A stretch of 64,000 nucleotides of DNA from contig NZ_CP107811.1 in assembly GCF_036346105.1 (NCBI RefSeq), positions 1,798,001 through 1,862,000 on the forward strand. Direction: 5' to 3'. The notes under the pieces were generated by a model. The model did not search any database. It had not been told where the DNA came from and saw only the letters and a program-made list of their open reading frames with translations. Origin of the DNA: Streptomyces sp. NBC_00539. GTDB lineage: Bacteria > Actinomycetota > Actinomycetes > Streptomycetales > Streptomycetaceae. Numbering within the stretch: position 1 is the first letter of the stretch; every line of letters starts with the position of its first letter. A program made the position numbers and the translations under genes. Shown piece after piece: positions 1 through 11,329 of this stretch.

Positions 1-131
1 AGACCGGGGGCCGAGTAGACGCTCCCGGGACGCAGCTCGCCCGCTATCAGGGCTGCTCGGAGGGCGTGACCGACCTGGTCACGGAGCCGTTCCTGGGCCT
101 TGATGAGACTGTGCTGCTTCAGGTCACCCAT
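1..131 (-). CDS. GntR-family transcriptional regulator, N-terminal part (cut by window edge)
   Basis: Only the first 43 or so codons lie in the window. The peptide starts MGDLKQHSL and continues with the pattern ALRAALIAGELRPG followed by an S.YSA element, which is the typical opening of the winged-helix domain of GntR regulators, most like the FadR/FCD branch. It starts at the ATG on the minus strand at 131 and runs off the left edge. It is the last gene of a leftward series of hydroxyproline genes, and a copy of the palindrome ATGTNACAT (168-176) sits 37 bases upstream of its start. This suggests an autoregulated local regulator of the cluster. The family is fairly clear; the subfamily and ligand are inference because the effector domain is outside the window. 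Confidence 0.8.
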   Translation of the reverse strand, partial: MGDLKQHSLIKAQERLRDQVGHALRAALIAGELRPGSVYSAPG

Positions 132-167
132 TGCTGTTCCTCCGCGCATCGAGAGGGACAGCGTACA

Positions 168-176
168 ATGTCACGT
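168..176. promoter_or_regulatory. Putative GntR operator A (ATGTCACGT)
   Basis: ATGTCACGT differs by one base from the palindrome ATGTNACAT, which is perfect at 7248-7256 and recurs at 4177-4185 and 9896-9904. It lies just upstream of the GntR gene and overlaps the stop codon of the reductase gene at 171-173. Such AT-rich words are rare in this GC-rich background. The role is inferred from recurrence. Confidence 0.5.
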
Positions 177-1115
177 TGCTCTGCCGGTCCCCGTCCTCTG
201 GAACAGTGCGACCGCCACGGCCAGATCCTCCCAGGCCATGCCCACGCTCTTGAAGAGCCGCGGACCATTTTGTCTTCCCGGCGCCGGATGGCGGCCGGCG
301 ACGAGGTCGGCGAGGGTACCGGTGATGTGACCGGGGCCGATCGCCCCCTCCGCCTCCGGGATCAGCAGGTCCCCCGCCTCGCGCAGGGCCACCGCGCGCG
401 ACTCCACGTACACCGCCGAGCGGCGCACCAGAGCGGTGTCGGTCTCCCGGGCGTCCGGTTCGTGCGAGCCGACCGCGACGACCGTCGCCCCGGGTCGGAC
501 CAGCCGCCCGTCGAACAACGGGGTACGGGCCGTGGTGCAGCAGAGCACCACATCGGCCCCGGACACGTCCTCGGGGCCACCGGTCCGGGCGGCGAGTCCC
601 AGGGCCCGCGCGTGCGCCGCGAGCCGTTCGGCGCGGTCCGGGGCCCGGGCGACGACCGTCACCCCGGCCAACTCCCGTTCCGCGAGCAGGGCTTCGAGGT
701 GCCCGTACGCCTGCGGTCCCGCCCCGAAGACGACCAGCGCGAGCGGCCGGTCCCGCGGCGTCAGGTGGCGCAGGGCCAGGGCCGACACGGCCGGGGTGCG
801 CAGGGCGGTGAGCGCGGCGCCGTCGAGCAGGGCGACGGGGCGCAGGGTGGGGCCGTCCAGCAGGAGGTAGGAGCCGGTGATCCGGGGCAGCCCGAGCGCG
901 GCGTTGCCCGGCGCGACTCCCGCGATCTTCACCCCGGCGTACGCGCCCGCCGCGGCCGGCATCAGCAGCAGCTCCCCGCCGGGCACGGGCACCGCGGTGC
1001 GCTGCGGGCACCCCTCCGGGTCCAGGCCGGCGCGCAGGACCCCGGCCAGGGCGTCGGCTGCCTCGGCGGGGGTGAGCAGCCCCGCCATGTCCGCGCCGGA
1101 GAGCTGCGCGATCAC
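171..1115 (-). CDS. Ornithine cyclodeaminase/mu-crystallin family protein, likely delta1-pyrroline-2-carboxylate reductase
   Basis: A 314-residue protein of the ornithine cyclodeaminase/mu-crystallin family. Visible are the substrate-side segment GVKIAGVAPGN, the Rossmann glycine motif VVFGAGPQAYGHLEAL near residue 130, and the late GRLVRPGATVVAVGSHEPD element typical of the family. Family members beside proline-racemase-like genes commonly reduce delta1-pyrroline-2-carboxylate to L-proline, the second step of trans-3-hydroxy-L-proline degradation. Here the GTG start overlaps the stop of the upstream racemase-family gene by four bases (1112-1115), so the two are translationally coupled. The reductase role is inferred from family and context; a true ornithine cyclodeaminase or another amino-acid dehydrogenase is possible. 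Confidence 0.8.
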   Translation of the reverse strand: MIAQLSGADMAGLLTPAEAADALAGVLRAGLDPEGCPQRTAVPVPGGELLLMPAAAGAYAGVKIAGVAPGNAALGLPRITGSYLLLDGPTLRPVALLDGAALTALRTPAVSALALRHLTPRDRPLALVVFGAGPQAYGHLEALLAERELAGVTVVARAPDRAERLAAHARALGLAARTGGPEDVSGADVVLCCTTARTPLFDGRLVRPGATVVAVGSHEPDARETDTALVRRSAVYVESRAVALREAGDLLIPEAEGAIGPGHITGTLADLVAGRHPAPGRQNGPRLFKSVGMAWEDLAVAVALFQRTGTGRAT

Positions 1116-2179
1116 AGCAGGAACCCGGCGCCGAGCTCGTCGTACGGGTCGACGGTGAAGGCGTGTTCACCGGTGCGGTAGGCCGTCCCCGTGACCTCCG
1201 TGACCAGGTCGTCCGCGTCCCCGCCCACGACCCGGCCGGTGAAGACCGTGCCGACGACCGACTCGTGCAGCAGGTCCTCCCCCGCACCCAGCCGCCCGTC
1301 CTGCGCGAGCAGTGCGAGCCGCGCGGAGGTACCGGAGCCGCAGGGCGAGCGGTCGGTCTGCCCGTCGGCGAAGACCGTCACGTTGCGCTGGTGCGGTCCG
1401 AAGGGGGTGTCGGGGAGTTCCTCGTAGAGGATCACCCCGTACACGCCGGAGAGCAGCGGGCCGCCAGGGTGCCAGGTACCCGGGTGCGTGGCCAGCGCCG
1501 CCCGGATCTCCTGGCCGGCGCGCACCAGCGAGGGCAGCGCGGCGGTGGAGACCTCCAGCCCGAGGTCCCGGGCCGGGACCGAGGCGTAGCAGGCCCCGGC
1601 GTGCGCGATGTCGGCTTCGGCCAGGCCGAGCGTGGTCGCGACCGGCACCTTGCGGGCGCCGACCCGGGCCGGGACGCCCCGGTAGGTCACCCCCGTGGAG
1701 CGGCCGCCGGAGCGGTGCACGGTGGCGGTGACCCGCCCGGACGGCACGTCGATGCGGACCTGGACGCTGCCGTCGTCCGGGGCCGGGACCCGGCCGGACT
1801 CCACGGCCCAGGCGCCGAGGGCCATGGTGCCGTGGCCGCAGGCGGTGGAGTAGCCGTCCTTGTGCCAGAACAGCACCCCGAAGTGGGCCCCGTCGTCGTC
1901 GGGCGGCACGACGAACCCGCCGTACATGCCGGCGTGCCCGCGGGGCTCCTGCACCAGGAGCCGCCGCAGGTCGTCCAGGGCGCCGCGGCGCGGGGCCGTC
2001 GGGGAGCCGCCGGGCCCGATGGCGGTGGCGCAGCGCTCGGCGACCGTGTCACCGGGTACGGCCGGCATCCCCGCGCAGGCGGTGTCGACGATGCGGAAGG
2101 GTTCGCCGGCCGCGTGGTAGTCGGTGGTGCGGACGGTGGTGGGGGCGGTCGCACGGACCGCGGCCGGGTCGGCGGTCAC
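1112..2179 (-). CDS. Proline racemase-family enzyme (second paralogue; 3-hydroxyproline dehydratase or racemase/epimerase)
   Basis: A 355-residue proline racemase-superfamily protein. It carries the N-terminal DYHAAGEPFRIVD signature, the first catalytic loop ACGHGT with Cys near 114, and the second catalytic loop SPCGSGTSA with Cys near 280. Two catalytic cysteines are what racemases and 4-hydroxyproline epimerases have; classical trans-3-hydroxy-L-proline dehydratases replace the second Cys with Thr. However, the DGYSTACGHG context and the coupling to a pyrroline-2-carboxylate reductase-like gene suggest the 3-hydroxyproline branch. The GTG start at 2179 is supported by GGAGG about 10 bases upstream, in the second copy of a 35-bp tandem duplication. 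Family is sure; substrate is open. Confidence 0.85.
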   Translation of the reverse strand: MTADPAAVRATAPTTVRTTDYHAAGEPFRIVDTACAGMPAVPGDTVAERCATAIGPGGSPTAPRRGALDDLRRLLVQEPRGHAGMYGGFVVPPDDDGAHFGVLFWHKDGYSTACGHGTMALGAWAVESGRVPAPDDGSVQVRIDVPSGRVTATVHRSGGRSTGVTYRGVPARVGARKVPVATTLGLAEADIAHAGACYASVPARDLGLEVSTAALPSLVRAGQEIRAALATHPGTWHPGGPLLSGVYGVILYEELPDTPFGPHQRNVTVFADGQTDRSPCGSGTSARLALLAQDGRLGAGEDLLHESVVGTVFTGRVVGGDADDLVTEVTGTAYRTGEHAFTVDPYDELGAGFLL

Positions 2180-2235
2180 AGCGGGAAACCTCCGGGGGAC
2201 GGGTCGGCGGTCACAGCAGGAAACCTCCGGGGAAC
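2166..2235. repeat. 35-bp tandem duplication at a gene junction
   Basis: Positions 2166-2200 and 2201-2235 are two copies of a 35-bp unit differing at two positions, and a third copy begins at 2236. Each copy contains, on the minus strand, the GGAGG ribosome-binding sequence, a GGTTTCC core and a stop/start GTGA. As a result the upstream epimerase ends at 2211 in one copy, and the true start of the next gene (2179) is in the other. Confidence 0.9.
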
Positions 2236-3215
2236 GGGTCGGCGGGGTCCAGGAAGTACTGGGCCGTGCCGGTGATCCAGGCCCGCCCGGTGACCGTGGG
2301 GATCACCGCGGGGAGGCCGCCCACCGTGGTCTGCGCCACGAGCCGGCCGGTGAACTCGGTACCGATGAAGGACTCGTTGACGAAGTCGGTGCCGAGCGGC
2401 AGCAGCCCCCGGGCGTGCAGCTGGGCCATCCGCGCGCTGGTGCCCGTACCGCAGGGCGAGCGGTCGAACCAGCCGGGGTGGATCGCCATGGCGTGCCGGG
2501 AGCGGCGGGCGTCCGAGCCGGGGGCCGCGAGGTAGACGTGCTTGACCCCGGCGATGGCGGGGTCCTCGCGGTGGACGGGCCGGTCGGCGGAGGCGTTGAC
2601 GGCCCCCATGACGGCGAGTCCGGCCGCCAGGAGGTCGTCCTTGCGGGCCCTGTCGAAGGGGAGGCCGAGGGCGTCGAGGTCGACGAAGGCGTAGAAGTTG
2701 CCGCCGTAGGCCAGGTCGTAGCTCACCGTGCCGTAGCCCGGGACCTCCACCTTCAGGTCGAGCCCCGCACAGTACGAGGCGACGTTGGTGAGCGTGACGG
2801 CGGTGGCCGATCCGCCCTCGACCCGGACGTCCACGCTCACCAGGCCGGCCGGGGTGTCGAGCCGGACCGTGGTCACCGGTTCCACGGCCGGGACCAGGCC
2901 GGTCTCGACCAGGACGGTGGCCACCCCGATGGTGCCGTGCCCGCACATGGGCAGCAGGCCCGACACCTCGATGTAGAGCACGCCGAAGTCGGCGTCGGGG
3001 CGGGTGGGGGGCTGGAGGACGGCGCCGCTCATCGCGGAGTGGCCGCGCGGTTCGTACATGAGCAGGGTCCGGACGTGGTCCATGTGCTCGATGAAGTGGA
3101 GCCGCTTGTCGGCCATGGTGTCGCCGGGGATGACCCCGATTCCCCCGGTGATCACGCGGGTCGGCATGCCCTCGGTGTGCGAATCCACCGCATGGTAGAT
3201 GTGGCGCGTGCGCAT
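2211..3215 (-). CDS. 4-hydroxyproline 2-epimerase (proline racemase family)
   Basis: A 334-residue proline racemase-family enzyme with both catalytic cysteines: MCGHGT (Cys near 91) and SPCGTGTSA (Cys near 255). It also has the family's HTEGMPTRV opening and a DRSPCGTGTS late motif. Such enzymes interconvert trans-4-hydroxy-L-proline and cis-4-hydroxy-D-proline, the entry step of bacterial hydroxyproline degradation. The start ATG at 3215 follows 17 bases after the stop of the DHDPS-family gene, so the two are probably one transcript. Adjacent genes for a D-hydroxyproline dehydrogenase and a DHDPS-family deaminase match the known pathway order and favour 4-hydroxyproline over proline as substrate. 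Direct racemase activity on proline cannot be excluded by sequence alone. Confidence 0.9.
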   Translation of the reverse strand: MRTRHIYHAVDSHTEGMPTRVITGGIGVIPGDTMADKRLHFIEHMDHVRTLLMYEPRGHSAMSGAVLQPPTRPDADFGVLYIEVSGLLPMCGHGTIGVATVLVETGLVPAVEPVTTVRLDTPAGLVSVDVRVEGGSATAVTLTNVASYCAGLDLKVEVPGYGTVSYDLAYGGNFYAFVDLDALGLPFDRARKDDLLAAGLAVMGAVNASADRPVHREDPAIAGVKHVYLAAPGSDARRSRHAMAIHPGWFDRSPCGTGTSARMAQLHARGLLPLGTDFVNESFIGTEFTGRLVAQTTVGGLPAVIPTVTGRAWITGTAQYFLDPADPFPGGFLL

Positions 3216-3232
3216 GGGTCCCCCAACGGGTC

Positions 3233-4156
3233 CTAGTTGAGGCCCTCGGCGAGGGCCTTTTCGGTGGCGGCGCGGACGGCCGCCTCGATCTCGCCGGTGA
3301 GCGGGAAGCGCGGCGGGCGGGTGGCGCCGCCGGGACGGCCGGCCAGGTCCATGGAGAGCTTGATGGCCTGCACGAACTCGGTCTTGGAGTCCCAGCGCAG
3401 CAGCGAGTGCAGGGACTTGTAGAGCGGCAGCGCGGTGGCGAGGTCGCCGGCGACGGCGGCCCGGTACAGGGTGGCGCAGGACTGCGGGAGGGCGTTGGGG
3501 TAGCCGGCGATCCAGCCGACGGCGCCCGCGAGGGCGAGTTCGAGGAGTACGTCGTCCGCGCCGATCAGCAGGTCGAGTCCGGGCGCGAGCTCGGCGATCT
3601 CGTAGGCGCGCCGCACGTCTCCGCTGAACTCCTTGACGGCGACGATGCTGCCGTCGGAGTGCAGCCGGGCCAGGAGCCCGGGCGTCAGGTCCACCTTGGT
3701 GTCGATGGGGTTGTTGTACGCGACGACGGGCAGGCCCGCCCGCGCCACCTCGGCGTAGTGGGCGCGGACGGCGTCCTCGTCGGCGCGGAACGCGTTGGGG
3801 GGCAGCAGCAGGACGGATCCCGCTCCGGCCTCCGCCGCCTGTTCGGCCCAGCGGCGCGCTTCGGCGCTGCCGTAGGCGGCGACCCCGGGCATGACGCGGC
3901 TGCCGTCGCCGGCCGCCTCGACGGCGGTGCGGACGACCCGGGCCCGCTCCTCGTCGGTGAGGGTCTGGTACTCGCCGAGGGAGCCGTTGGGGACGACGCC
4001 GTCGCACCCGTTGGCGATCAGCCAGGCCACGTGCTCGGCGTAGGCGTCGTAGTCGACGGCGAGGTCTTCGCGCAGCGGCAGCGCGGTGGCGACCATGATG
4101 CCGTGCCAGGGGCGGTTGCGGGGCTGGGCGGGCGCGGGGGTGTGCGCGTGGGTCAT
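3233..4156 (-). CDS. Dihydrodipicolinate synthase-family lyase, likely delta1-pyrroline-4-hydroxy-2-carboxylate deaminase
   Basis: A 307-residue class I aldolase-fold protein of the DHDPS/N-acetylneuraminate lyase family. It shows the GSLGEY loop near residue 58, the YNNP motif, and the Schiff-base lysine in VAVKEFSGD (near Lys175). In hydroxyproline clusters this family deaminates delta1-pyrroline-4-hydroxy-2-carboxylate to alpha-ketoglutarate semialdehyde. The ATG start at 4156 is the first gene of its transcript. An ATGTNACAT-type palindrome lies 20 bases upstream at 4177-4185. The family is certain. The assignment to hydroxyproline rather than lysine synthesis or sialic acid breakdown rests on the neighbours: an epimerase directly downstream and the three-subunit dehydrogenase directly upstream. 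Confidence 0.87.
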   Translation of the reverse strand: MTHAHTPAPAQPRNRPWHGIMVATALPLREDLAVDYDAYAEHVAWLIANGCDGVVPNGSLGEYQTLTDEERARVVRTAVEAAGDGSRVMPGVAAYGSAEARRWAEQAAEAGAGSVLLLPPNAFRADEDAVRAHYAEVARAGLPVVAYNNPIDTKVDLTPGLLARLHSDGSIVAVKEFSGDVRRAYEIAELAPGLDLLIGADDVLLELALAGAVGWIAGYPNALPQSCATLYRAAVAGDLATALPLYKSLHSLLRWDSKTEFVQAIKLSMDLAGRPGGATRPPRFPLTGEIEAAVRAATEKALAEGLN

Positions 4157-4176
4157 GAAGGACTCCCTAGAGTGGT

Positions 4177-4185
4177 GTGTGACAT
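4177..4185. promoter_or_regulatory. Putative GntR operator B (GTGTGACAT)
   Basis: GTGTGACAT, one mismatch from ATGTNACAT, sits 20 bases upstream of the deaminase start inside an AT-rich patch (CATTTTACTAA). It probably marks the promoter and operator of the deaminase-epimerase-racemase-reductase transcript. Inference from recurrence; no footprint is known. Confidence 0.5.
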
Positions 4186-4242
4186 TTTACTAAGGGACGT
4201 GAGGGGGCCACAAGGGCCCGGACGTGCCGGATCCGGATCGGA

Positions 4243-5688
4243 TCAGTGAGGGTCCTGCGGCAGTTCGGCCAAGTGGCGCAGCGGTACTGGGCAGGAAAGG
4301 GGACGCCGGTCGGGGGCCGCTCCCGCGGCGGAGGAGGTTTCCCCCGCCAGGGCGGCGACGGCCGGGCCGCACATCCGGCCCTGGCACCAGCCCATCCCGG
4401 CCCGCGTGAGCAGTTTGACGGTACGGGCGTCCCGTGCGCCGAGATCACGGGTGGCCTGCCGGATCCGGCCCGCCGGGACCTCCTCGCAGCGGCACACGTC
4501 GGTGTCCTCGCGCAGCCAGCCGGTCCAGCCCTCGCCGGGGCGGTGTGCGGCGGCCATCGCCCCGGCGAAGGCCCGCAGCCGCGCGCGGCGGCGGACGAGC
4601 GCGGCCGGCGCGGGCCGGCCGGCGAGGGAGAAGGCCGCCAGTTCACCCTCGGTCAGCGCCAATTCGGCACCCCCGATGCCCCCGGTCTCGCCCGCGGACC
4701 AGATGCCGGGGACGGAGGTTCGCTGCCCGGCGTCCAGTTCCAGGGCGACGGTCCCGTCCGCGCCGGGGCGGGTGGCGCAGCCGAGTGCCGTCGCCAGCTC
4801 CAGCTGGGGCACGAGGCCGTGGCCGACGGCGACGGCGTCGCAGGGGATCCGCCGCCCGGTGCCGGGCAGCGGCCGCCAGTCGCCGTCCAGCCGGGCCACG
4901 GTGACGGCCTCGACCCGGCCCCGGCCGTGGGCTTCGGTGACGGCGTGCCGGGTCAGGAGGCGGACGCCGTGGCGCAGCAGCGCGCTGCCGTACGCGGCGC
5001 CTTCGGCGAGCTTGCCGGGGTTGCGCAGCAGGGCGGGCAGCCGGCCCGCGTACGCGGTGTACGAGGCCGCCTCCACGACGGCCGGGACGGTGGCTCCGGC
5101 GGCCGCGAGGGAGCCGGCCACGGCGAGCAGCAGCGGCCCGCTCCCGGCGACGACCACCCGCTTGCCCGGCAGCACCAGGCCGCCCTTGAGCATGGCCTGG
5201 GCCCCGCCGGCCCCGACGACCCCGGGCAGGGTCCAGCCGGGGAAGGGCAGTTGCCGCTCGTAGGCGCCGGTGGCCAGCAGGACGGAGGAGGCCCTGAGCG
5301 TGACGGACCGCTCCTCGGGGCCCGCGACGGCGTGCAGCGTCCAGCGCCCGCCGTCCGGGACCACCGTCCAGACGTGGTGCGCCGGGAGGTAGGTGATCCG
5401 GCCTGCCGATTCGTGGGCGCGCAGGGCGGCTTCGCGGGTGGCGAAGGCGGCCCATTGGTGGTGCAGCGCCTCGGGGCGTTCGGCGCCGAGGCCGGGCGCG
5501 GGCCGGCGGTAGAACTGGCCGCCGGGGCGCTCCCCCGCGTCCAGCAGCGCGACCCGCAGGCCGAGGCGGGCGGCGGTGACGGCGGCGGCCAGCCCGGCGG
5601 GCCCGGCACCGACGACGGCGAGGTCGGGCACGGCCGGGCCGGATACGGCGCGCTCCGGCGACGAGGGGTCAGACGGCGAGGTCGGCAC
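4243..5688 (-). CDS. D-hydroxyproline dehydrogenase-type alpha subunit (FAD/NAD(P)-binding oxidoreductase with BFD-like Fe-S domain)
   Basis: A 481-residue flavoprotein related to the HcnB/sarcosine oxidase alpha and D-hydroxyproline dehydrogenase alpha subunits. The dinucleotide motif VVGAGPAGLAAAV lies near residue 22 and a second, VVVAGSGPLLLAV, in the middle. The C-terminal quarter has a BFD-like cluster-binding region with CRCEEV and later GMGWCQGRMCG. The GTG start at 5688 has GGAAGGG about ten bases upstream and overlaps the end of the ferredoxin-like gene by 20 bases, which indicates coupling. With the small [2Fe-2S] and the DAAO-like subunits upstream it would oxidise cis-4-hydroxy-D-proline to the pyrroline. 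Opine or glycine-to-cyanide oxidation by related complexes is less likely here. Confidence 0.85.
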   Translation of the reverse strand: MPTSPSDPSSPERAVSGPAVPDLAVVGAGPAGLAAAVTAARLGLRVALLDAGERPGGQFYRRPAPGLGAERPEALHHQWAAFATREAALRAHESAGRITYLPAHHVWTVVPDGGRWTLHAVAGPEERSVTLRASSVLLATGAYERQLPFPGWTLPGVVGAGGAQAMLKGGLVLPGKRVVVAGSGPLLLAVAGSLAAAGATVPAVVEAASYTAYAGRLPALLRNPGKLAEGAAYGSALLRHGVRLLTRHAVTEAHGRGRVEAVTVARLDGDWRPLPGTGRRIPCDAVAVGHGLVPQLELATALGCATRPGADGTVALELDAGQRTSVPGIWSAGETGGIGGAELALTEGELAAFSLAGRPAPAALVRRRARLRAFAGAMAAAHRPGEGWTGWLREDTDVCRCEEVPAGRIRQATRDLGARDARTVKLLTRAGMGWCQGRMCGPAVAALAGETSSAAGAAPDRRPLSCPVPLRHLAELPQDPH

Positions 5689-5998
5689 GGCCGGTCCCTT
5701 CCTGGGTGGTGACGGTGTCCCCGGCCCGCGCCGGGACCAGGCAGGCCCGCTGGTTCGGCCGGCCGTTGACCGTGACGAGGCAGTCGTAGCAGCTGCCGAT
5801 CCCGCAGAACGCCCCGCGCGGCGCGCCCCCCTCACGCGTGGTGCGCCAGGCGAGGATCCCGGCGTTCCACAGCACGGCGGCGATGCTCTGGCCGGACTCC
5901 GCGGTCAGTCCGCGGCCGTCGAAGCGCAGGACGTACGTCGCCCGGGGGGCTCCGCCCACGAGTGCGCGGGGCGAGCGGTCACCGGTGGGCCGGCTCAT
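5669..5998 (-). CDS. (2Fe-2S)-binding gamma subunit of the D-hydroxyproline dehydrogenase-type complex
   Basis: A 109-residue ferredoxin-like protein. The cysteine pattern AFCGIGSCYDC, followed about 14 residues later by RAC, is that of a plant-type [2Fe-2S] domain as found in the small HcnA-like subunits of hydroxyproline, opine and sarcosine dehydrogenases. The ATG at 5998 is preceded by GAAGGAG at the right distance, which is why it is chosen over an upstream in-frame start. It lies between the two large flavoprotein subunits and overlaps the alpha subunit gene by 20 bases. It would pass electrons between the two flavoproteins. Confidence 0.87.
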   Translation of the reverse strand: MSRPTGDRSPRALVGGAPRATYVLRFDGRGLTAESGQSIAAVLWNAGILAWRTTREGGAPRGAFCGIGSCYDCLVTVNGRPNQRACLVPARAGDTVTTQEGTGRADLAV

Positions 5999-6062
5999 CG
6001 GACGTCTCCTTCTTCGGGCGCGGCTCGGTAGGGGACTTCGCAAGGGGCTTCGTACGGCCGGC

Positions 6063-7238
6063 TCACGGCTGCCCCTCCGGGTCGGGCTCCCGCGCGAAGG
6101 GCCGCTCCGGCCGGAAGGGCGCGGGGTCCAGCGGTGGTTCGGATCCGGTCAGCGCGGCCGTGATCAGCACGCCGGTGGCCGGGGCCAGGCCGATGCCCGC
6201 ACCCTCGTGCCCGCAGGCGTGCAGCAGCCCGGGCACCCGGGGGTCGGGGCCGATGGCCGGAAGGTGGTCGGGGAGGTAGGGGCGGAAGCCGTGGTAGGTC
6301 CGCAGCACCCGCACGTCGGCCAGTACCGGGAACAGCGCGGCCGCCTGGGACGCGAGCCGGCGCAGGGCGTCCACCGACAGGGAGCGGTCGAAGCCGACCC
6401 GCTCCCGGGTGGCCCCGATGAGCACCGGGCCCGAGGGGGTGCCCTCGACCACCGCCGAGGACTGCAGGGCTGCGGAGCCGCTGGCCACGTCCGCGATGTA
6501 GTCGGCGGCGTAGACCTTGTGCCGCACGACCCTCGGCAGTGGCTCGGTCACCAGGACGAAGCCGCGGCGCGGGAGCACCGGCAGGGTGGTCCCGGCGAGT
6601 TCGGCGATCCGGCCGCCCCAGGTGCCGGCGGCGTTGACGACGGCCGGGGCGAGGAGTTCGCGGGTGCGGGTGCGCACCCCCCGTACGGCCCCGCGCTCCA
6701 GCACGAGGTCCGTCACCTCCTCGCCGAGGTGCACCGAGGCCCCGTCGGCGGCCGCCGCGGCCAGCAGCCGGGCAGCCGCCTGGGCGGGCTGGACCTGCGC
6801 GTCCTGCGGGTAGTGGAAGCCTCCCGCGAGCCCCGGAGCCAGATGGGGCTCCAGCTCGGGCAGGTCGGCGTCCCCCACCTCGACGGCGGTGACGCCCGCC
6901 GCGCGCTGGCCTTCCGCGAAGCTCCGCAGCGCCCTGAGCGAAGCCTCGTCCGGGGCGACGACCAGGCCGCCCTTGTCCTCGTACTCCATCTCCTGTCCGA
7001 GGAGGGCCGCCAGTTCGCGCCACAGGCCCGCGGACAGCAGGGCCAGGTCGAGCTCCGCTCCGGCTTCCTTGTCGGAGACGAGCAGGTTGCCCTCGCCCGC
7101 ACCGGTGGTGCCGCCGGCGACGGATCCGCGGTCGACGACGGCCACGCGCAGGCCCGCGCGGGTGGCGTAGTACGCGCACGCGGCTCCGACGACACCGGCG
7201 CCGATGATGACGGCGTCCAGACCATTTCTGTTGGGCAC
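6063..7238 (-). CDS. D-hydroxyproline dehydrogenase-type beta subunit (DAAO-family FAD oxidoreductase)
   Basis: A 391-residue D-amino acid oxidase/sarcosine oxidase beta-family flavoprotein. The FAD-binding motif VIIGAGVVGAACAY is near residue 10, and the C-terminal CGHEGAGIGLAPATG is the typical second flavin-contacting segment. In three-subunit hydroxyproline dehydrogenases this subunit holds the substrate site. The GTG start at 7238 has no clear ribosome-binding site and lies only 10 bases from the perfect palindrome ATGTCACAT at 7248-7256. Translation may therefore start close to the transcript 5' end. It is the first gene of the beta-gamma-alpha series, which runs leftward into the deaminase and epimerase genes. 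Confidence 0.85.
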   Translation of the reverse strand: MPNRNGLDAVIIGAGVVGAACAYYATRAGLRVAVVDRGSVAGGTTGAGEGNLLVSDKEAGAELDLALLSAGLWRELAALLGQEMEYEDKGGLVVAPDEASLRALRSFAEGQRAAGVTAVEVGDADLPELEPHLAPGLAGGFHYPQDAQVQPAQAAARLLAAAAADGASVHLGEEVTDLVLERGAVRGVRTRTRELLAPAVVNAAGTWGGRIAELAGTTLPVLPRRGFVLVTEPLPRVVRHKVYAADYIADVASGSAALQSSAVVEGTPSGPVLIGATRERVGFDRSLSVDALRRLASQAAALFPVLADVRVLRTYHGFRPYLPDHLPAIGPDPRVPGLLHACGHEGAGIGLAPATGVLITAALTGSEPPLDPAPFRPERPFAREPDPEGQP

Positions 7239-7247
7239 GGCAGTAAT

Positions 7248-7256
7248 ATGTCACAT
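7248..7256. promoter_or_regulatory. Putative GntR operator C (perfect palindrome ATGTCACAT)
   Basis: ATGT-C-ACAT is a perfect palindrome and the best copy of the motif, 10 bases upstream of the beta-subunit start and inside an AT-rich patch. At this distance a bound repressor would block initiation of the dehydrogenase operon. Regulatory role is inferred from copies at 168, 4177 and 9896. Confidence 0.55.
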
Positions 7257-7301
7257 TCTTTATCGAGTGCCTAGGGTCGGCCGGGGGCTCGCCGGCCCCG
7301 C

Positions 7302-7343
7302 CCGGGCCGGTCCCTCCCCCCGTTGCGGCAGGGACCGGCCCGG
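7302..7343 (-). terminator. Intrinsic terminator of the collagenase gene
   Basis: CCGGGCCGGTCCCT (7302-7315) pairs perfectly with AGGGACCGGCCCGG (7330-7343), a 14-bp stem with a 14-base loop, nine bases past the collagenase stop. It separates that transcript from the dehydrogenase operon. There is no long U tract, as is common in Streptomyces. Confidence 0.75.
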
Positions 7344-7351
7344 AGCCGTGA

Positions 7352-9760
7352 TCAGCTGCGCAGCGGGCCCTCGCAGCTGTAGCCCGACGTCCCCGCCGTG
7401 TGGTTGCTCCAGATCTCCACGGGGCCGAAGGAGCAGTTCATGTCGGTGAAGTTGGTGGAGACGGGGGCCGTCCGGTCGAGGATGAAGTAGTCCACCGTCT
7501 CGGACATGTCCTTGAAGTTCTGGTCGTCGCTGCGCCAGTTCTTGAGGTTGGCCGTGATGCGGCCGGTACAGGTGAACCGGCGCTTGCCGGGGTCGCCGTT
7601 CTCCACGCAGTCGGGGGTGTTGTAGGTGGCTGCCGCGAACGAGGACTTCACGTTCGCGAGCGCGGAGTCGCGCAGCCGGTCGTTGGCCGTGAAGCTGGTG
7701 TTCGGCACGTAGAGCTGGTCGACCTTGGCGATCTGCGCGTCCAGGAACTTGTCGTAGTCGCGCTGGAGGTAGGTGTCGGCGCCCATCCGGTGGCGCCACG
7801 CGTCGTACCCGGCGACGTCGTTCTCGCGCAGGTGGGTGTACATCTCGCGCAGCAGGCTGGGCTTCTCGGTCCACAGGAACTCGAAGAACGTGCCCGCGTA
7901 GTTGTAGAAGCGGAAGCCGTCGCCGTCGTAGGTGGCGTTCAGCAGCTGTTCGACCGACATCCGGGGGCCGCCGCCGGCGGTGTCGTTGATGATGCCCTTG
8001 ACCAGGGACTTGCGGACGGCGATGCCGTTGTCGCGGGTCGCGCCGTCGAAGAACTCGGCAGTGCCCTCGTCCATCGCGGTCGTGCGGTCGCCCTCGTACC
8101 AGGGGCCCTCGCCGAAGGAGCCGGGGACGGCGAAGCGGCCGTTGAGGTAGTGCGTGTACTCGTGGCGGAACAGCTCTTCGAGGGTGAGGGTGGAGTCCTG
8201 CGGGACGCGGCGCTGGTAGGTGTAGAAGGTGGCGCCGTTCTCGATGTACATGCCGCCGTTGTTGGTGCCGTAGCCGTTGAGCATCGTCTGGTAGGTGACG
8301 TAGTCGGCGCGGGAGGCGTACAGCACGATGTTCAACGTGGTGTTGGGGTCGCCGGCGAGCGGCTGGTCCGTGCCGAGCACGCGGTGGAACTGCGTCTTGA
8401 CCTGCTTGCTCGCGTAGTAGAGCTGGTCGACGGTGGCCCGGTCGAGTGCGGTGCGGACCTTGATGCCGCCGTTGTCGTACGTGTAGGTGTTGGGGAAGAG
8501 CATCTTCTCGATGTCCTCCTTGCACACCCCGTACTGCTTGCACGCGTTGTAGCTGTTCAGCCAGCTGACGACCTTGGCCCAGGGCTCGCTTCCGTTGCCC
8601 CACGTCGTCTTGACCTGCGCGAGGAGCGTTCCGAGGTCGGCGGTGATCTGGTCCTGGAGGCCGTCGACCTGGCCGAAGCGGCCGTACTCACCCAGCCCGT
8701 CGCGGACGGCCCATTCGTTCGGGGTGCCCTTGAGGTGCGTGTATCCGGCGAAGGCCTTGAAGGCGGCCCGGTAGGAGGGGTCCGCCTTGACCGCGGCGTG
8801 GAAGTCGGAGTCCTCGTTGCCCGGGTACACGCCGAGGTAGTTGATGGTGAGGGCGGCGAGGGCGGCCCCGCCCCAGTTCGCGTCGCCGCTGGTCGCGGGG
8901 TGCGAGGCGTCCAGGGTGGCCAGGACCTTCTTGATGAGGCCGAGCTGGCGGTGGCGCATGCCGGGCCCGACGGAGTAGAGGGCCTCGCGCAGGGTCCGGG
9001 CGTTGGAGGCGGTGGCGTCGAAAGTGTGCGCGGCGTTGCCGAAGTCGGTGACGGCCCGGGTCATGGCGTCGACGGTCGCGGCGTCGGTGAGGTCGATCTC
9101 GTCGCGGGAGAAGTCGTGGTAGATCGCGGCGTGCAGGAAGGTGAACATCTCCTCCAGGTGGGAGGAGTTGCGGCCGTCGTGGGCGGCGGCCAGGGCGGAT
9201 ATCCGGCGGGAGACGGCCTGGACGTGCGCGTCGTCCATAACGGGTGCCAGGCGGGCGTCCCAGGTCCATATGAGGCCGCGCAGGCAGCCGTCCGCGAGGA
9301 CGGCCGGGTCGGCGAGGAAGTCGGCGAACTGCTCGGGCGACAGCGCCTTGATCCCGTCGAGGGTGCAGGGCACGTTGACGGCCAGGCCCCGGGTGGTGGG
9401 AGCGCCCTGGGCGGGCTTGCCGCTCTTGTCCGTGCGCTGCGCGGAGGCGGCGGCGCCCGCGGCCGGGGCGGCGCCGGGAACCTTGCCGTCGGATATCGCC
9501 AGGCCGCCGGGGGCGGGGGCCGGTACCGCGGTGGTCGGCGCCAGGGCGTCGGCCCGGTGCTCGACCTCGTCGAACGGGTTCGGCGCGAGGGCGCCGGGGG
9601 CTCCGCCGGTGGTGCCGGCCGCGGAACCGGAGGTGAAGGTCGCCGGGACCGGAGCGCCCGCCTCGGCCGCGTGGGTCACGGCCTGGCCGGCGGAGGCGAG
9701 GAGCGTGACGGCGACGGCGGCGGAGAGGAGGGACGAACGCACAGCTCTGTGCTGGGACAC
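7352..9760 (-). CDS. Secreted M9-family collagenase
   Basis: A protein of about 802 residues. It has a signal peptide (RSSLLSAAVAVTLLASAGQA, cleavage near AEA), a Pro/Ala-rich spacer, an M9 N-terminal activator-like region, and a metalloprotease domain with the zinc motif HEYTH near residue 533 and the downstream glutamate in DEGTAEF about 30 residues later. The C-terminus has a short Cys-containing domain but no obvious PKD repeats, so it is shorter than clostridial collagenases. Start chosen: the GTG at 9760, with AGGAG six bases upstream, rather than the TTG just before it. It would act outside the cell, releasing Pro/Hyp-rich peptides. It ends at a strong hairpin and is divergent from an Xaa-Pro aminopeptidase gene, which fits a role in feeding the hydroxyproline pathway. 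Confidence 0.92.
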   Translation of the reverse strand: MSQHRAVRSSLLSAAVAVTLLASAGQAVTHAAEAGAPVPATFTSGSAAGTTGGAPGALAPNPFDEVEHRADALAPTTAVPAPAPGGLAISDGKVPGAAPAAGAAASAQRTDKSGKPAQGAPTTRGLAVNVPCTLDGIKALSPEQFADFLADPAVLADGCLRGLIWTWDARLAPVMDDAHVQAVSRRISALAAAHDGRNSSHLEEMFTFLHAAIYHDFSRDEIDLTDAATVDAMTRAVTDFGNAAHTFDATASNARTLREALYSVGPGMRHRQLGLIKKVLATLDASHPATSGDANWGGAALAALTINYLGVYPGNEDSDFHAAVKADPSYRAAFKAFAGYTHLKGTPNEWAVRDGLGEYGRFGQVDGLQDQITADLGTLLAQVKTTWGNGSEPWAKVVSWLNSYNACKQYGVCKEDIEKMLFPNTYTYDNGGIKVRTALDRATVDQLYYASKQVKTQFHRVLGTDQPLAGDPNTTLNIVLYASRADYVTYQTMLNGYGTNNGGMYIENGATFYTYQRRVPQDSTLTLEELFRHEYTHYLNGRFAVPGSFGEGPWYEGDRTTAMDEGTAEFFDGATRDNGIAVRKSLVKGIINDTAGGGPRMSVEQLLNATYDGDGFRFYNYAGTFFEFLWTEKPSLLREMYTHLRENDVAGYDAWRHRMGADTYLQRDYDKFLDAQIAKVDQLYVPNTSFTANDRLRDSALANVKSSFAAATYNTPDCVENGDPGKRRFTCTGRITANLKNWRSDDQNFKDMSETVDYFILDRTAPVSTNFTDMNCSFGPVEIWSNHTAGTSGYSCEGPLRS

Positions 9761-9895
9761 CAAGGACTCCTGTGGGGAAGGGAGGGCCGCGGGTGCGGCG
9801 TGCGAGATGCATGAGGTGCGTAGTGCGTGAACTGCCCTGCTTCACGCGGCGTTTGACGGGGATTAACGCGGCGCGGTGTGAGCTGTAACATAGTA

Positions 9896-9904
9896 ATGTG
9901 AAAT
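9896..9904. promoter_or_regulatory. Putative GntR operator D (ATGTGAAAT) in the collagenase/aminopeptidase divergent promoter
   Basis: ATGTGAAAT differs by one base from ATGTNACAT. It lies in the 198-bp gap between the divergent collagenase and aminopeptidase genes, within the AT-rich run TAACATAGTAATGTGAAATT. This is the weakest member of the set because the mismatch is in an otherwise conserved position. If real it ties both peptidases to the same regulator. Confidence 0.35.
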
Positions 9905-9958
9905 TGCACTGACAACCCCTGTGCGCCCACCAGTTCGCTTCTCTTCCAGGGAGCCCCC

Positions 9959-11329
9959 GTGACCGATGCCTCCTCCCGCCTCCACATCGGCAGCCATGAC
10001 CTGCCCGTCTCTCCGGAGCTGTCCCGTTTCATGGCGGGCGGCTGGGCCCCTTCACCGCTGAGCGGCTCGAGCGGGATTCCGGCGTCCGCCGTCACCCCCG
10101 CCCGCCGGGCCCGCCTGTCGGCGCTCTTCCCGGGCGAGCGGCTCATCTTCCCGGCCGGCGAACTCAAGGTCCGCTCCAACGACTGCGACTACCGCTTCCG
10201 TCCGCACAGCGCGTACGCCTGGCTGACGGGTCTGACCGGCGAGGACCAGGTGGGCCACGTCCTGGTGCTGGAGCCTTCGGGCCCGCACGGACACGAGGCC
10301 GTGCTGTACCTGCGCCCGCGCTCACCGCGCGCGGACGGCAACGAGGAGTTCTACCGGGACCGCCGGTACGGGGAGTTCTGGGTGGGCCGCCGCGCCGACC
10401 TGGCCGAGGCGCAGGCCCTGACCGGCATCCGCTGCGCCCACCTGGACTCCCTCGGCTCACCGACGGGCCGCGACGCCTCACGTGACGCCGGACTCGCCAC
10501 CGCGCTCTCCGAGTTGCGCCTGGTGAAGGACGCCTGGGAGGTGGACCAGCTCCAGTCGGCGGTGGACCACACGGCGGCCGGGTTCGAGGACGTCGTACGG
10601 TCCCTGCCGCGCGCGCTGGAACACCCGCGCGGCGAGCGCTGGATCGAGGGGGTCTTCGGCCTGCGCGCCCGGGCGGAGGGCAACGGGACCGGGTACGACA
10701 CGATCGCCGCCTCGGGCGCGCACGCGTGCGTGCTGCACTGGATCCGCAACGACGGCCGCCTGGACCGGGGCGATCTGCTCCTGCTGGACGCGGGAGTGGA
10801 GACCGACACCCTCTACACGGCGGACATCACCCGCACCCTCCCCCTGTCGGGACGGTTCTCCCCGGTCCAGCGGCAGGTGTACGAACTGGTCCTGGCCGCC
10901 CAGGAAGCGGGCATCGCCGCGCTGCGGCCGGGCGCGAGCTTCCGGGACTTCCACCGCGCGGGCATGCGGGTGATCGCGGAAGGGCTCGCGGAATGGGGGG
11001 TCCTCAAGGACGCGGAGGGTGACCTGCACCGGCGCTACACCTTGTGCAGCAGCGGCCACATGCTGGGGCTGGACGTCCACGACTGCGCGAAGGCGCGGGC
11101 GCAGACCTACCTGGACGGGGTGCTGGAGGAGGGCCAGGTCCTCACGGTGGAACCGGGCCTCTACCTCCAGCCCGACGACGAGACGCTGCCCGCCGAACTG
11201 CGCGGCATCGGGGTGCGCATCGAGGACGACCTGGTCATCACGGCGACGGGCGCCCGACTGATGTCGGGCGCCCTGCCGCGGACGGTCAGCGGGATCGAGG
11301 AGTGGATGGGAACCCTGCTGGAAGGCTGA
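9959..11329 (+). CDS. pepP: Xaa-Pro aminopeptidase (aminopeptidase P, M24B family)
   Basis: A 456-residue M24B peptidase. The N-terminal aminopeptidase-P domain is followed by a pita-bread catalytic domain with the expected metal ligands: Asp in LLLDAGVE, Asp in ADITRT, His in GHMLGLDVHDC, Glu in VEPGLY and Glu in VRIEDD. It removes the N-terminal residue from peptides with proline, and often hydroxyproline, in second position. There is no signal peptide, so it is cytoplasmic. The GTG start at 9959 is preceded by AGGGAG. It is transcribed divergently from the collagenase gene and sits beside the hydroxyproline genes, where it would process imported collagen peptides that ordinary peptidases cannot cut. 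Streptomyces commonly have other copies of this family. Confidence 0.92.
   Translation: MTDASSRLHIGSHDLPVSPELSRFMAGGWAPSPLSGSSGIPASAVTPARRARLSALFPGERLIFPAGELKVRSNDCDYRFRPHSAYAWLTGLTGEDQVGHVLVLEPSGPHGHEAVLYLRPRSPRADGNEEFYRDRRYGEFWVGRRADLAEAQALTGIRCAHLDSLGSPTGRDASRDAGLATALSELRLVKDAWEVDQLQSAVDHTAAGFEDVVRSLPRALEHPRGERWIEGVFGLRARAEGNGTGYDTIAASGAHACVLHWIRNDGRLDRGDLLLLDAGVETDTLYTADITRTLPLSGRFSPVQRQVYELVLAAQEAGIAALRPGASFRDFHRAGMRVIAEGLAEWGVLKDAEGDLHRRYTLCSSGHMLGLDVHDCAKARAQTYLDGVLEEGQVLTVEPGLYLQPDDETLPAELRGIGVRIEDDLVITATGARLMSGALPRTVSGIEEWMGTLLEG

Follow-up and report, generated by a model that had tools for sequence, protein, structure and literature searches.

Positions 1 to 11,329 of the 64,000-nucleotide stretch of Streptomyces sp. 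NBC_00539 analysed here (the window, G000:C1:1798001-1862000, from a 7.5-Mb genome in two contigs) carry genes for a collagenase, a proline-specific aminopeptidase and hydroxyproline (Hyp) degradation. Sequence comparison makes it highly probable that these genes, together with others left of the window, make up the known Streptomyces HypR regulon in an extended form, gathered at one locus and serving the use of collagen-type proteins, rich in proline (Pro) and Hyp. Its transcription units very probably share one operator and one FadR/GntR-type repressor, HypR. In Streptomyces coelicolor, the site TACAATGTCAC was DNase-footprinted upstream of hypR (SCO6294) in 2019, and HypR also binds TGCAATGTCAC at the hydroxyproline operon and in the SCO5911/5912 (collagenase) intergenic region; deletion of hypR led to derepression, placing the hydroxyproline operon and the M9 collagenase under HypR repression (PMC6608401).

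The operator upstream of hypR in our strain, TACAATGTCAC at 164-174 (plus strand), is identical to that footprinted site. The S, T, R, R and N residues predicted to be the DNA contacts of HypR (50/52/55/71/72 in S. coelicolor; PMC6608401) all have the same letters here at +1 numbering. Motif and matrix matches predict HypR-type operators at the hypD promoter (TAAAATGTCACAC, 4177-4189, minus strand) and between the divergent collagenase and pepP genes (TGCAATTTCACAT, 9896-9908, minus strand). Another predicted site, TAATATGTCACAT (7244-7256, plus strand), lies upstream of the start codon of the dehydrogenase operon at 7238 and includes a perfect palindrome at 7248-7256. The operators of the D-hydroxyproline dehydrogenase (D-HypDH) operon and the collagenase are thus predicted in variant letters. 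The collagenase operator is enclosed in the 17-nt spacer of a putative core promoter, recognized by sequence at 9887-9915 on the minus strand (TTGTCA at 9910-9915, TATGTT at 9887-9892).

An earlier note on this DNA had proposed joint regulation through the palindrome ATGTNACAT, perfect at 7248-7256 and with one mismatch at 168-176, 4177-4185 and 9896-9904. All four sites are there, and a fifth one-mismatch copy lies at 9883. Taken by itself, the palindrome scan was weak: with one mismatch allowed, 64 kb gave 5 matches where 2.2 +/- 1.4 were expected, 5 of 100 shuffles also gave that many, and the exact form occurs at six places in the whole genome, one of them in this locus. It was hence dropped as a working motif in favor of the published HypR motif and a 13-nt matrix, and once recast in this way the evidence became strong. 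TRCAATGTSAC has a single exact match in the genome, at 164-174. With at most one mismatch there are 62 matches (25 for the reversed control), 12 of which are repeated rRNA sequence by letter identity (with an Rfam check of a single stretch, L108). Four of the 62 fall within 10.6 kb of the locus, at the importer promoter (C1:1797311), hypR, hypD (4179-4189) and collagenase/pepP (9898-9908), where 0.09 would be expected (Poisson 2e-6, for a region picked post hoc). The dehydrogenase site at 7244-7256 has two mismatches to TRCAATGTSAC, yet it is the perfect palindrome of the earlier note.

The matrix was built from promoters of five classes in 79 named loci, with the sites of our own strain excluded; this makes for some circularity in its scores for the hypR, hypD, dehydrogenase, collagenase and importer promoters, while the sites described below for S9, S33/second binding protein, LysR and the type-A collagenases were outside the training. 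In a scan of the 64-kb window, the four promoters ranked at the top (best site of each, 22.6-25.7) and held all eight best matches, compared with a maximum of 8.9 in 2000 random 300-nt stretches taken from 12.5-64 kb. On this sequence evidence, the palindrome of the earlier note is the core of a real operator.

The sites are also conserved across the genus. We mapped the genes by tblastn in 79 loci with collagenase relatives (the closest collagenase among the matches listed, from Streptomyces cirratus, is 94% identical) and added our own locus for counts in 300-bp upstream regions, whose starts, taken or projected from alignments, are approximate and some of which are shared by divergent neighbors. 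The motif was found upstream of hypR in 51 of 52 rows, always exact, the single miss being the second fragment of one gene. With at most one mismatch, it was found upstream of hypD (43/49), the collagenase (68/76), the importer binding protein (36/37) and pepP (49/51). The dehydrogenase upstream regions matched in 13 of 68 cases at this threshold and in 67 of 68 with up to two mismatches, some of these matches belonging to the divergent importer promoter. As controls, no match with up to two mismatches was found upstream of the operon-internal racemase paralog (0/54), and none with up to one in 356 coding stretches. At the hypR, hypD and dehydrogenase operators, the core is more conserved than its flanks. 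The collagenase and importer promoters have in common a longer block, TTGTCA-N17-TATGTT, with the operator inside the spacer, which suggests that HypR represses these promoters by blocking polymerase. The footprinted site, the kept residues predicted to contact DNA and this conservation support the joint regulation that had been proposed.

The gene order also recurs in other Streptomyces: the collagenase is followed directly by the dehydrogenase in 49 of the 79 loci and by the racemase paralog in 10, a hyp gene or hypR lies somewhere in the fetched stretch in 70, and 33 hold all ten genes. No other mapped gene was found in five loci, several of which are short or end at a contig end. One locus recorded as Streptosporangium nondiastaticum (L061) has a Streptomyces-like arrangement, with a 67% collagenase, importer, pepP and dehydrogenase; the name may be wrong.

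In the mechanism that we propose, HypR would sit on ATGTNACAT-like operators, each within or beside a core promoter, and control five transcription units: its own gene, hypD-epimerase-racemase-reductase, the dehydrogenase with its three subunits, the collagenase (with the divergent pepP) and an oligopeptide ATP-binding cassette (ABC) importer. An adjacent DPP-IV-like S9 peptidase gene with the same kind of site is probably a regulon member. Further away, a gene for a prolyl-iminopeptidase-like protein may be another, together with that for a second binding protein. A hydroxyproline-derived metabolite would relieve repression. The collagenase would then cut its substrate outside the cell, the peptides would be imported, and Pro-specific peptidases would free Pro and Hyp. 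Hyp would be epimerized, oxidized and deaminated to alpha-ketoglutarate semialdehyde, and its final oxidation would be left to an aldehyde dehydrogenase encoded elsewhere.

The importer and the S9 gene lie left of the window. Domain matches identify an SBP_bac_5 protein (ending at L007:15513) and an OppF-like ATPase (L007:11536-12516) of the oligopeptide type, adjoined by an S9 peptidase gene with a DPPIV_N domain (L007:9383-11434, plus strand). Among 13 stretches that adjoin hypR in relatives, 8 hold the S9 gene. A ATTTCACAT-like palindrome stands near its start in our strain and in all eight relatives (with one changed letter in L206), and matrix scores are at least 15 in 8/8 relatives and 20.8 in our own genome. 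The long collagenase/importer element occurs at three places in the genome with up to three mismatches (control, 0). The third, at C1:1886589, 80 kb to the right, lies between a second SBP_bac_5 protein gene and a divergent alpha/beta hydrolase gene, S33-like in that its matches to prolyl iminopeptidase models are weak and below the cut-off; the matrix score of this promoter is 21.0. Relatives of this hydrolase (79-85%) follow directly after hypR in G030, G058 and G090, with a strong upstream site in two of the three and none in one. G054 is a fourth genome, with the same long element at its S33-like gene as in our own. The commoner relatives, at about 52%, were found to be without the long element. 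In G054 (L148), the S33-like gene matches as a pair of neighboring pieces, 92% and 94% identical, and may be broken. Beside the second binding protein of our strain there is a gene for a LysR-type regulator (L141:12528-13526) with overlapping HypR-like sites upstream of it at L141:12462-12477 (21.9 and 21.1).

To place the collagenases in the genus, 121 genomes were surveyed, our own included. Relatives of hypR were found in 101 (E <= 1e-45), a dehydrogenase subunit in 98 (E <= 1e-60) and M9 domains in 73. By Pfam score, the M9 matches split into a high group A (n=55) and a low group B (n=38), to which the window's enzyme belongs, with three matches below the cut-off left out of the grouping. 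A hypR or dehydrogenase gene is found within 20 kb for 32 of the 38 type-B genes and for 17 of the 55 type-A genes, both figures being lowered by contig ends. For upstream counts, type-A sequence was retrieved for 16 of the 17 genes with this linkage and for 25 of the 38 without it, and we dropped alignments beginning beyond residue 400 of the query, GntR matches below 60% identity and upstream regions under 300 nt. Although type A was not used in training, 14 of 16 linked and 23 of 24 unlinked upstream regions scored at least 15 (the 25th unlinked gene, the truncated copy of our own strain, is not in that count), compared with none of 1000 window stretches. A few "unlinked" type-A genes are near other members, for example pepP, OppF or the racemase pair. 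Across 269 kb around unlinked type-A genes, 30 matches were upstream of an M9 gene, some being both strands of one site, and three were elsewhere, all in our own stretch L247: one some 60 bp ahead of the likely ATG of the truncated M9 gene and two that are one palindrome further on. A hypR copy adjoins the collagenase and pepP in five genomes (G030, G058, G064, G055 and G096; L216, L217, L218, L219 and L220), three of which (G030, G058 and G064) have another copy by the hydroxyproline operon.

The second M9 gene of our strain (L247:5158-6168, G000:C1:6826657-6827667) codes for 336 aa with a signal-like N terminus and a shortened M9 match. It first appeared to be site-free, with nothing at up to one mismatch, an impression overturned by the HypR-like site TAAAATGGCACAT (matrix 20.2), which lies some 60 bp ahead of its likely start codon, the ATG at L247:5230. 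Near it, upstream of a gene for a small secreted-type protein, lies an inverted repeat with 14-bp arms, CTTGTGTGATGTGA-TATT-TCACATCACACAAG (L247:6956-6987), which includes the HypR-like core, although it may be the target of another regulator.

Domain-family matches and open reading frames agree with the gene order and content read earlier from the letters alone: reductase, racemase paralog, epimerase-like protein, deaminase, three dehydrogenase subunits and M9 collagenase, left to right on the minus strand, and a divergent M24 aminopeptidase on the plus strand. The GntR gene is likewise real, the full-length product having both GntR and FCD domains, as in the FadR subfamily, but the left edge cuts it, so that only its first ~44 codons (1..131, minus strand) are within the window and the remainder is at C1:1797421-1798000. 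The nearest solved relatives of the repressor are the GntR/FadR-type structures 3fms and 3sxy (the latter named TM0439). The DHDPS-family deaminase (hypD, 3233-4156) has the same family and neighbors as SCO6292. Domain matches assign to D-HypDH an alpha-like FAD/BFD [2Fe-2S] subunit (4246-5691), a gamma-like 2Fe-2S subunit (5672-5998) and a beta-like DAO flavoprotein subunit (6066-7238). With these three genes together beside hypD, the assignment to a three-subunit D-HypDH is sound at the sequence level. The secreted-type M9 collagenase (7355-9763), of the subgroup with a low Pfam M9 score, has the HEXXH motif as HEYTH at residues 534-538 and a downstream Glu in EGTAE, and the best solved relatives of its catalytic domain are the Clostridium-type ColH, ColT and ColG. 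The AMP_N/M24 domains of the pepP-like Xaa-Pro aminopeptidase (9959-11326, plus strand) are preceded by no signal peptide evident by eye.

The remaining minus-strand genes bear on the claim that both known hydroxyproline branches are encoded here. These are an OCD/mu-crystallin family protein resembling delta1-pyrroline-2-carboxylate (P2C) reductase (171-1115; best NCBIfam model below its cut-off), a Pro_racemase paralog (1112-2179) and a 4-hydroxyproline 2-epimerase-like protein with the Pro_racemase fold (2214-3215; NCBIfam 358 bits, cut-off 376). The paralog and the reductase could together form the trans-3-hydroxy-L-proline branch, which we consider unlikely. Their best NCBIfam matches are indeed to the trans-3-Hyp dehydratase and P2C reductase models, and adjacent genes for 4-hydroxyproline epimerase and trans-3-Hyp dehydratase occur in some species (PMC4113996), but both scores are far below the cut-offs (255/540 and 220/322 bits, respectively). 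The best solved relative of the paralog is the proline racemase 6r76, with the trans-3-Hyp dehydratase 7qpo second. Moreover, both the epimerase-like protein (Cys91/Cys255) and the paralog (Cys114/Cys280) have a Cys/Cys pair, as expected for racemases and epimerases, whereas known trans-3-hydroxy-L-proline dehydratases have Cys-Thr or Ser-Thr (PMC4364671). The pair is present in 57/57 epimerase rows of relatives and in 50 of 54 paralog rows, the first motif being unmatched in the other four. Considering this pair, the paralog is likelier a proline racemase or hydroxyproline epimerase, beside a P2C reductase-like protein, than part of a dehydratase branch, and the second branch is left unsupported.

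Two other explanations concern the regulon as a whole. HypR could be limited to hypR and the hydroxyproline genes, the collagenase, importer and peptidases being clustered nearby under another regulator with a similar TGTNACA-like site. In keeping with this, one conserved position of the hypR site is changed in the collagenase and importer sites (TRCAATTTCAC), and the LysR gene that adjoins the second binding protein has similar sites of its own. However, S. coelicolor HypR binds and represses the collagenase promoter at TGCAATGTCAC (PMC6608401), and of 76 collagenase upstream regions 4 have exactly this form and 64 are one base off the pattern, so that a separate regulator seems very improbable. 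The other explanation accepts a common regulon and assigns it to plant Hyp-rich proteins (extensins) or to X-Pro peptides in general, the M9 enzyme having another natural substrate. The importer and the M24, S9 and S33 peptidases are generic for Pro-containing peptides. Hydroxyproline is also present in plant and algal cell walls (PMC6608401). This is a conceivable but rather doubtful alternative, since the M9 catalytic domain is closest, among solved relatives, to the Clostridium-type enzymes and the site is found at two M9 subgroups.

Several points weigh against the collagen-type HypR regulon that we favor. Family, operator and gene context are the grounds for taking our HypR as an ortholog of SCO6294, and we infer HypR repression in this strain, its effector and the substrates of the importer and peptidases. 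In S. coelicolor, L-hydroxyproline (L-Hyp) induces the regulon promoters in vivo (the hypR and SCO6289 promoters being those in Figure 7 of the report), yet neither L-Hyp nor D-Hyp gave release of HypR in vitro (PMC6608401). The SCO5911 promoter, divergent from the S. coelicolor collagenase, was inactive (PMC6608401), and therefore regulation of pepP may not hold. Some upstream regions score below 15 (hypD, 8/13; pepP, 6/17; S33, 1/3; hypR, 2/36), while 90 of 1200 random 650-nt stretches of 60 fetched loci, promoters included, reach that value because the fetched loci hold many of these promoters. The relatives are phylogenetically non-independent, and the 121-genome survey and the 79-locus set partly overlap. 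Finally, kgd, a HypR target in S. coelicolor (SCO5281; PMC6608401), was tried as a regulon member and reached at best 7.0 around a start inferred from the open frame, the S. coelicolor site having no counterpart here.

The end of the pathway was also overstated in the proposal that the locus leads to alpha-ketoglutarate. A search for an alpha-ketoglutarate semialdehyde dehydrogenase gave no aldehyde dehydrogenase match between C1:1127917 and C1:2107355 (none within 0.3 Mb). Of 21 matches in the genome, 20 upstream regions were scored and none has a site (best, 9.2), the 21st match being below the cut-off; because these stretches were measured from where the domains start, a distant gene start could escape. 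By this motif, the last step and kgd would thus lie outside the regulon, and we count kgd as a peripheral rather than a defining HypR target.

The earlier note took the coupling to a collagenase to be undescribed. In fact, a single regulon reaching from collagen to the breakdown of Hyp is not a new idea, the coupling having been shown in S. coelicolor (PMC6608401) and predicted in Proteobacteria (PMC5343134). The S. coelicolor A3(2) regulon has the same FadR/GntR HypR, TACAATGTCAC at its own promoter, three-subunit D-HypDH, HypD, epimerase (without which growth on L-Hyp is lost) and M9 collagenase, and there too the aldehyde dehydrogenase is encoded elsewhere (PMC6608401). It differs in that SCO5912 is unlinked to SCO6289-6294, in contrast to the single locus found here, in having kgd as a target, and in that the targets named in the report include no oligopeptide importer or DPP-IV-like peptidase (PMC6608401). 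Streptomyces lividans also grows on trans-4-hydroxy-L-proline with induction of the hyp genes, in a report that treats no regulator or collagenase in what we consulted of it (PMC4113996). The lhp pathway of Pseudomonas shares the three-subunit D-HypDH, the delta1-pyrroline-4-hydroxy-2-carboxylate deaminase and the epimerase, but LhpR is an AraC-type activator, and coupling to a collagenase is not described there (as cited in PMC6608401).

Outside the phylum, the closest likeness is to the GntR-family HypR regulons predicted in 2016 for Alteromonadales and Aeromonas, which join Hyp catabolism to three collagenases, proline (di)peptidases and a di/tripeptide permease (PMC5343134). Their GT/AC spacing is 2 nt (PMC4494728), compared with 1 nt (GTNAC) here, and our locus differs further in its ABC oligopeptide importer and DPP-IV-like enzyme. 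Our literature search, which covered few subscription papers and no preprints, found no paper with an oligopeptide importer or DPP-IV-like gene under a Streptomyces HypR. Apparently new, then, are the single-locus form, the sites at the oligopeptide importer and the DPP-IV-like gene, and the sites at two M9 subgroups across the genus; to these comes, on less evidence, a probable S33/second-binding-protein unit with its HypR-type site.

We lean, with moderate confidence, toward a broader generalization: that throughout Streptomyces a complete regulon for collagen utilization, comprising secreted M9 enzymes of two subgroups, the importer, M24/S9/S33-like peptidases and Hyp catabolism, is under the dedicated control of HypR. 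The operator would follow the genes whether packed or scattered, second hypR copies would travel with the collagenase, and proteobacterial FadR-type regulators with a differently spaced operator would govern the same gene content.

A report from one species would in this way become a genus-wide, testable regulon with named promoters, to which peptide import and Pro-specific trimming add the missing middle of the pathway. The prediction is that signals derived from hydroxyproline, or the removal of one repressor, can switch on collagenase expression in Streptomyces, which may be of use for collagenase production and offers insight into how soil bacteria recycle animal protein. It would also exemplify a single operator shared by two subgroups of collagenases, and similar regulons that occur in two phyla.

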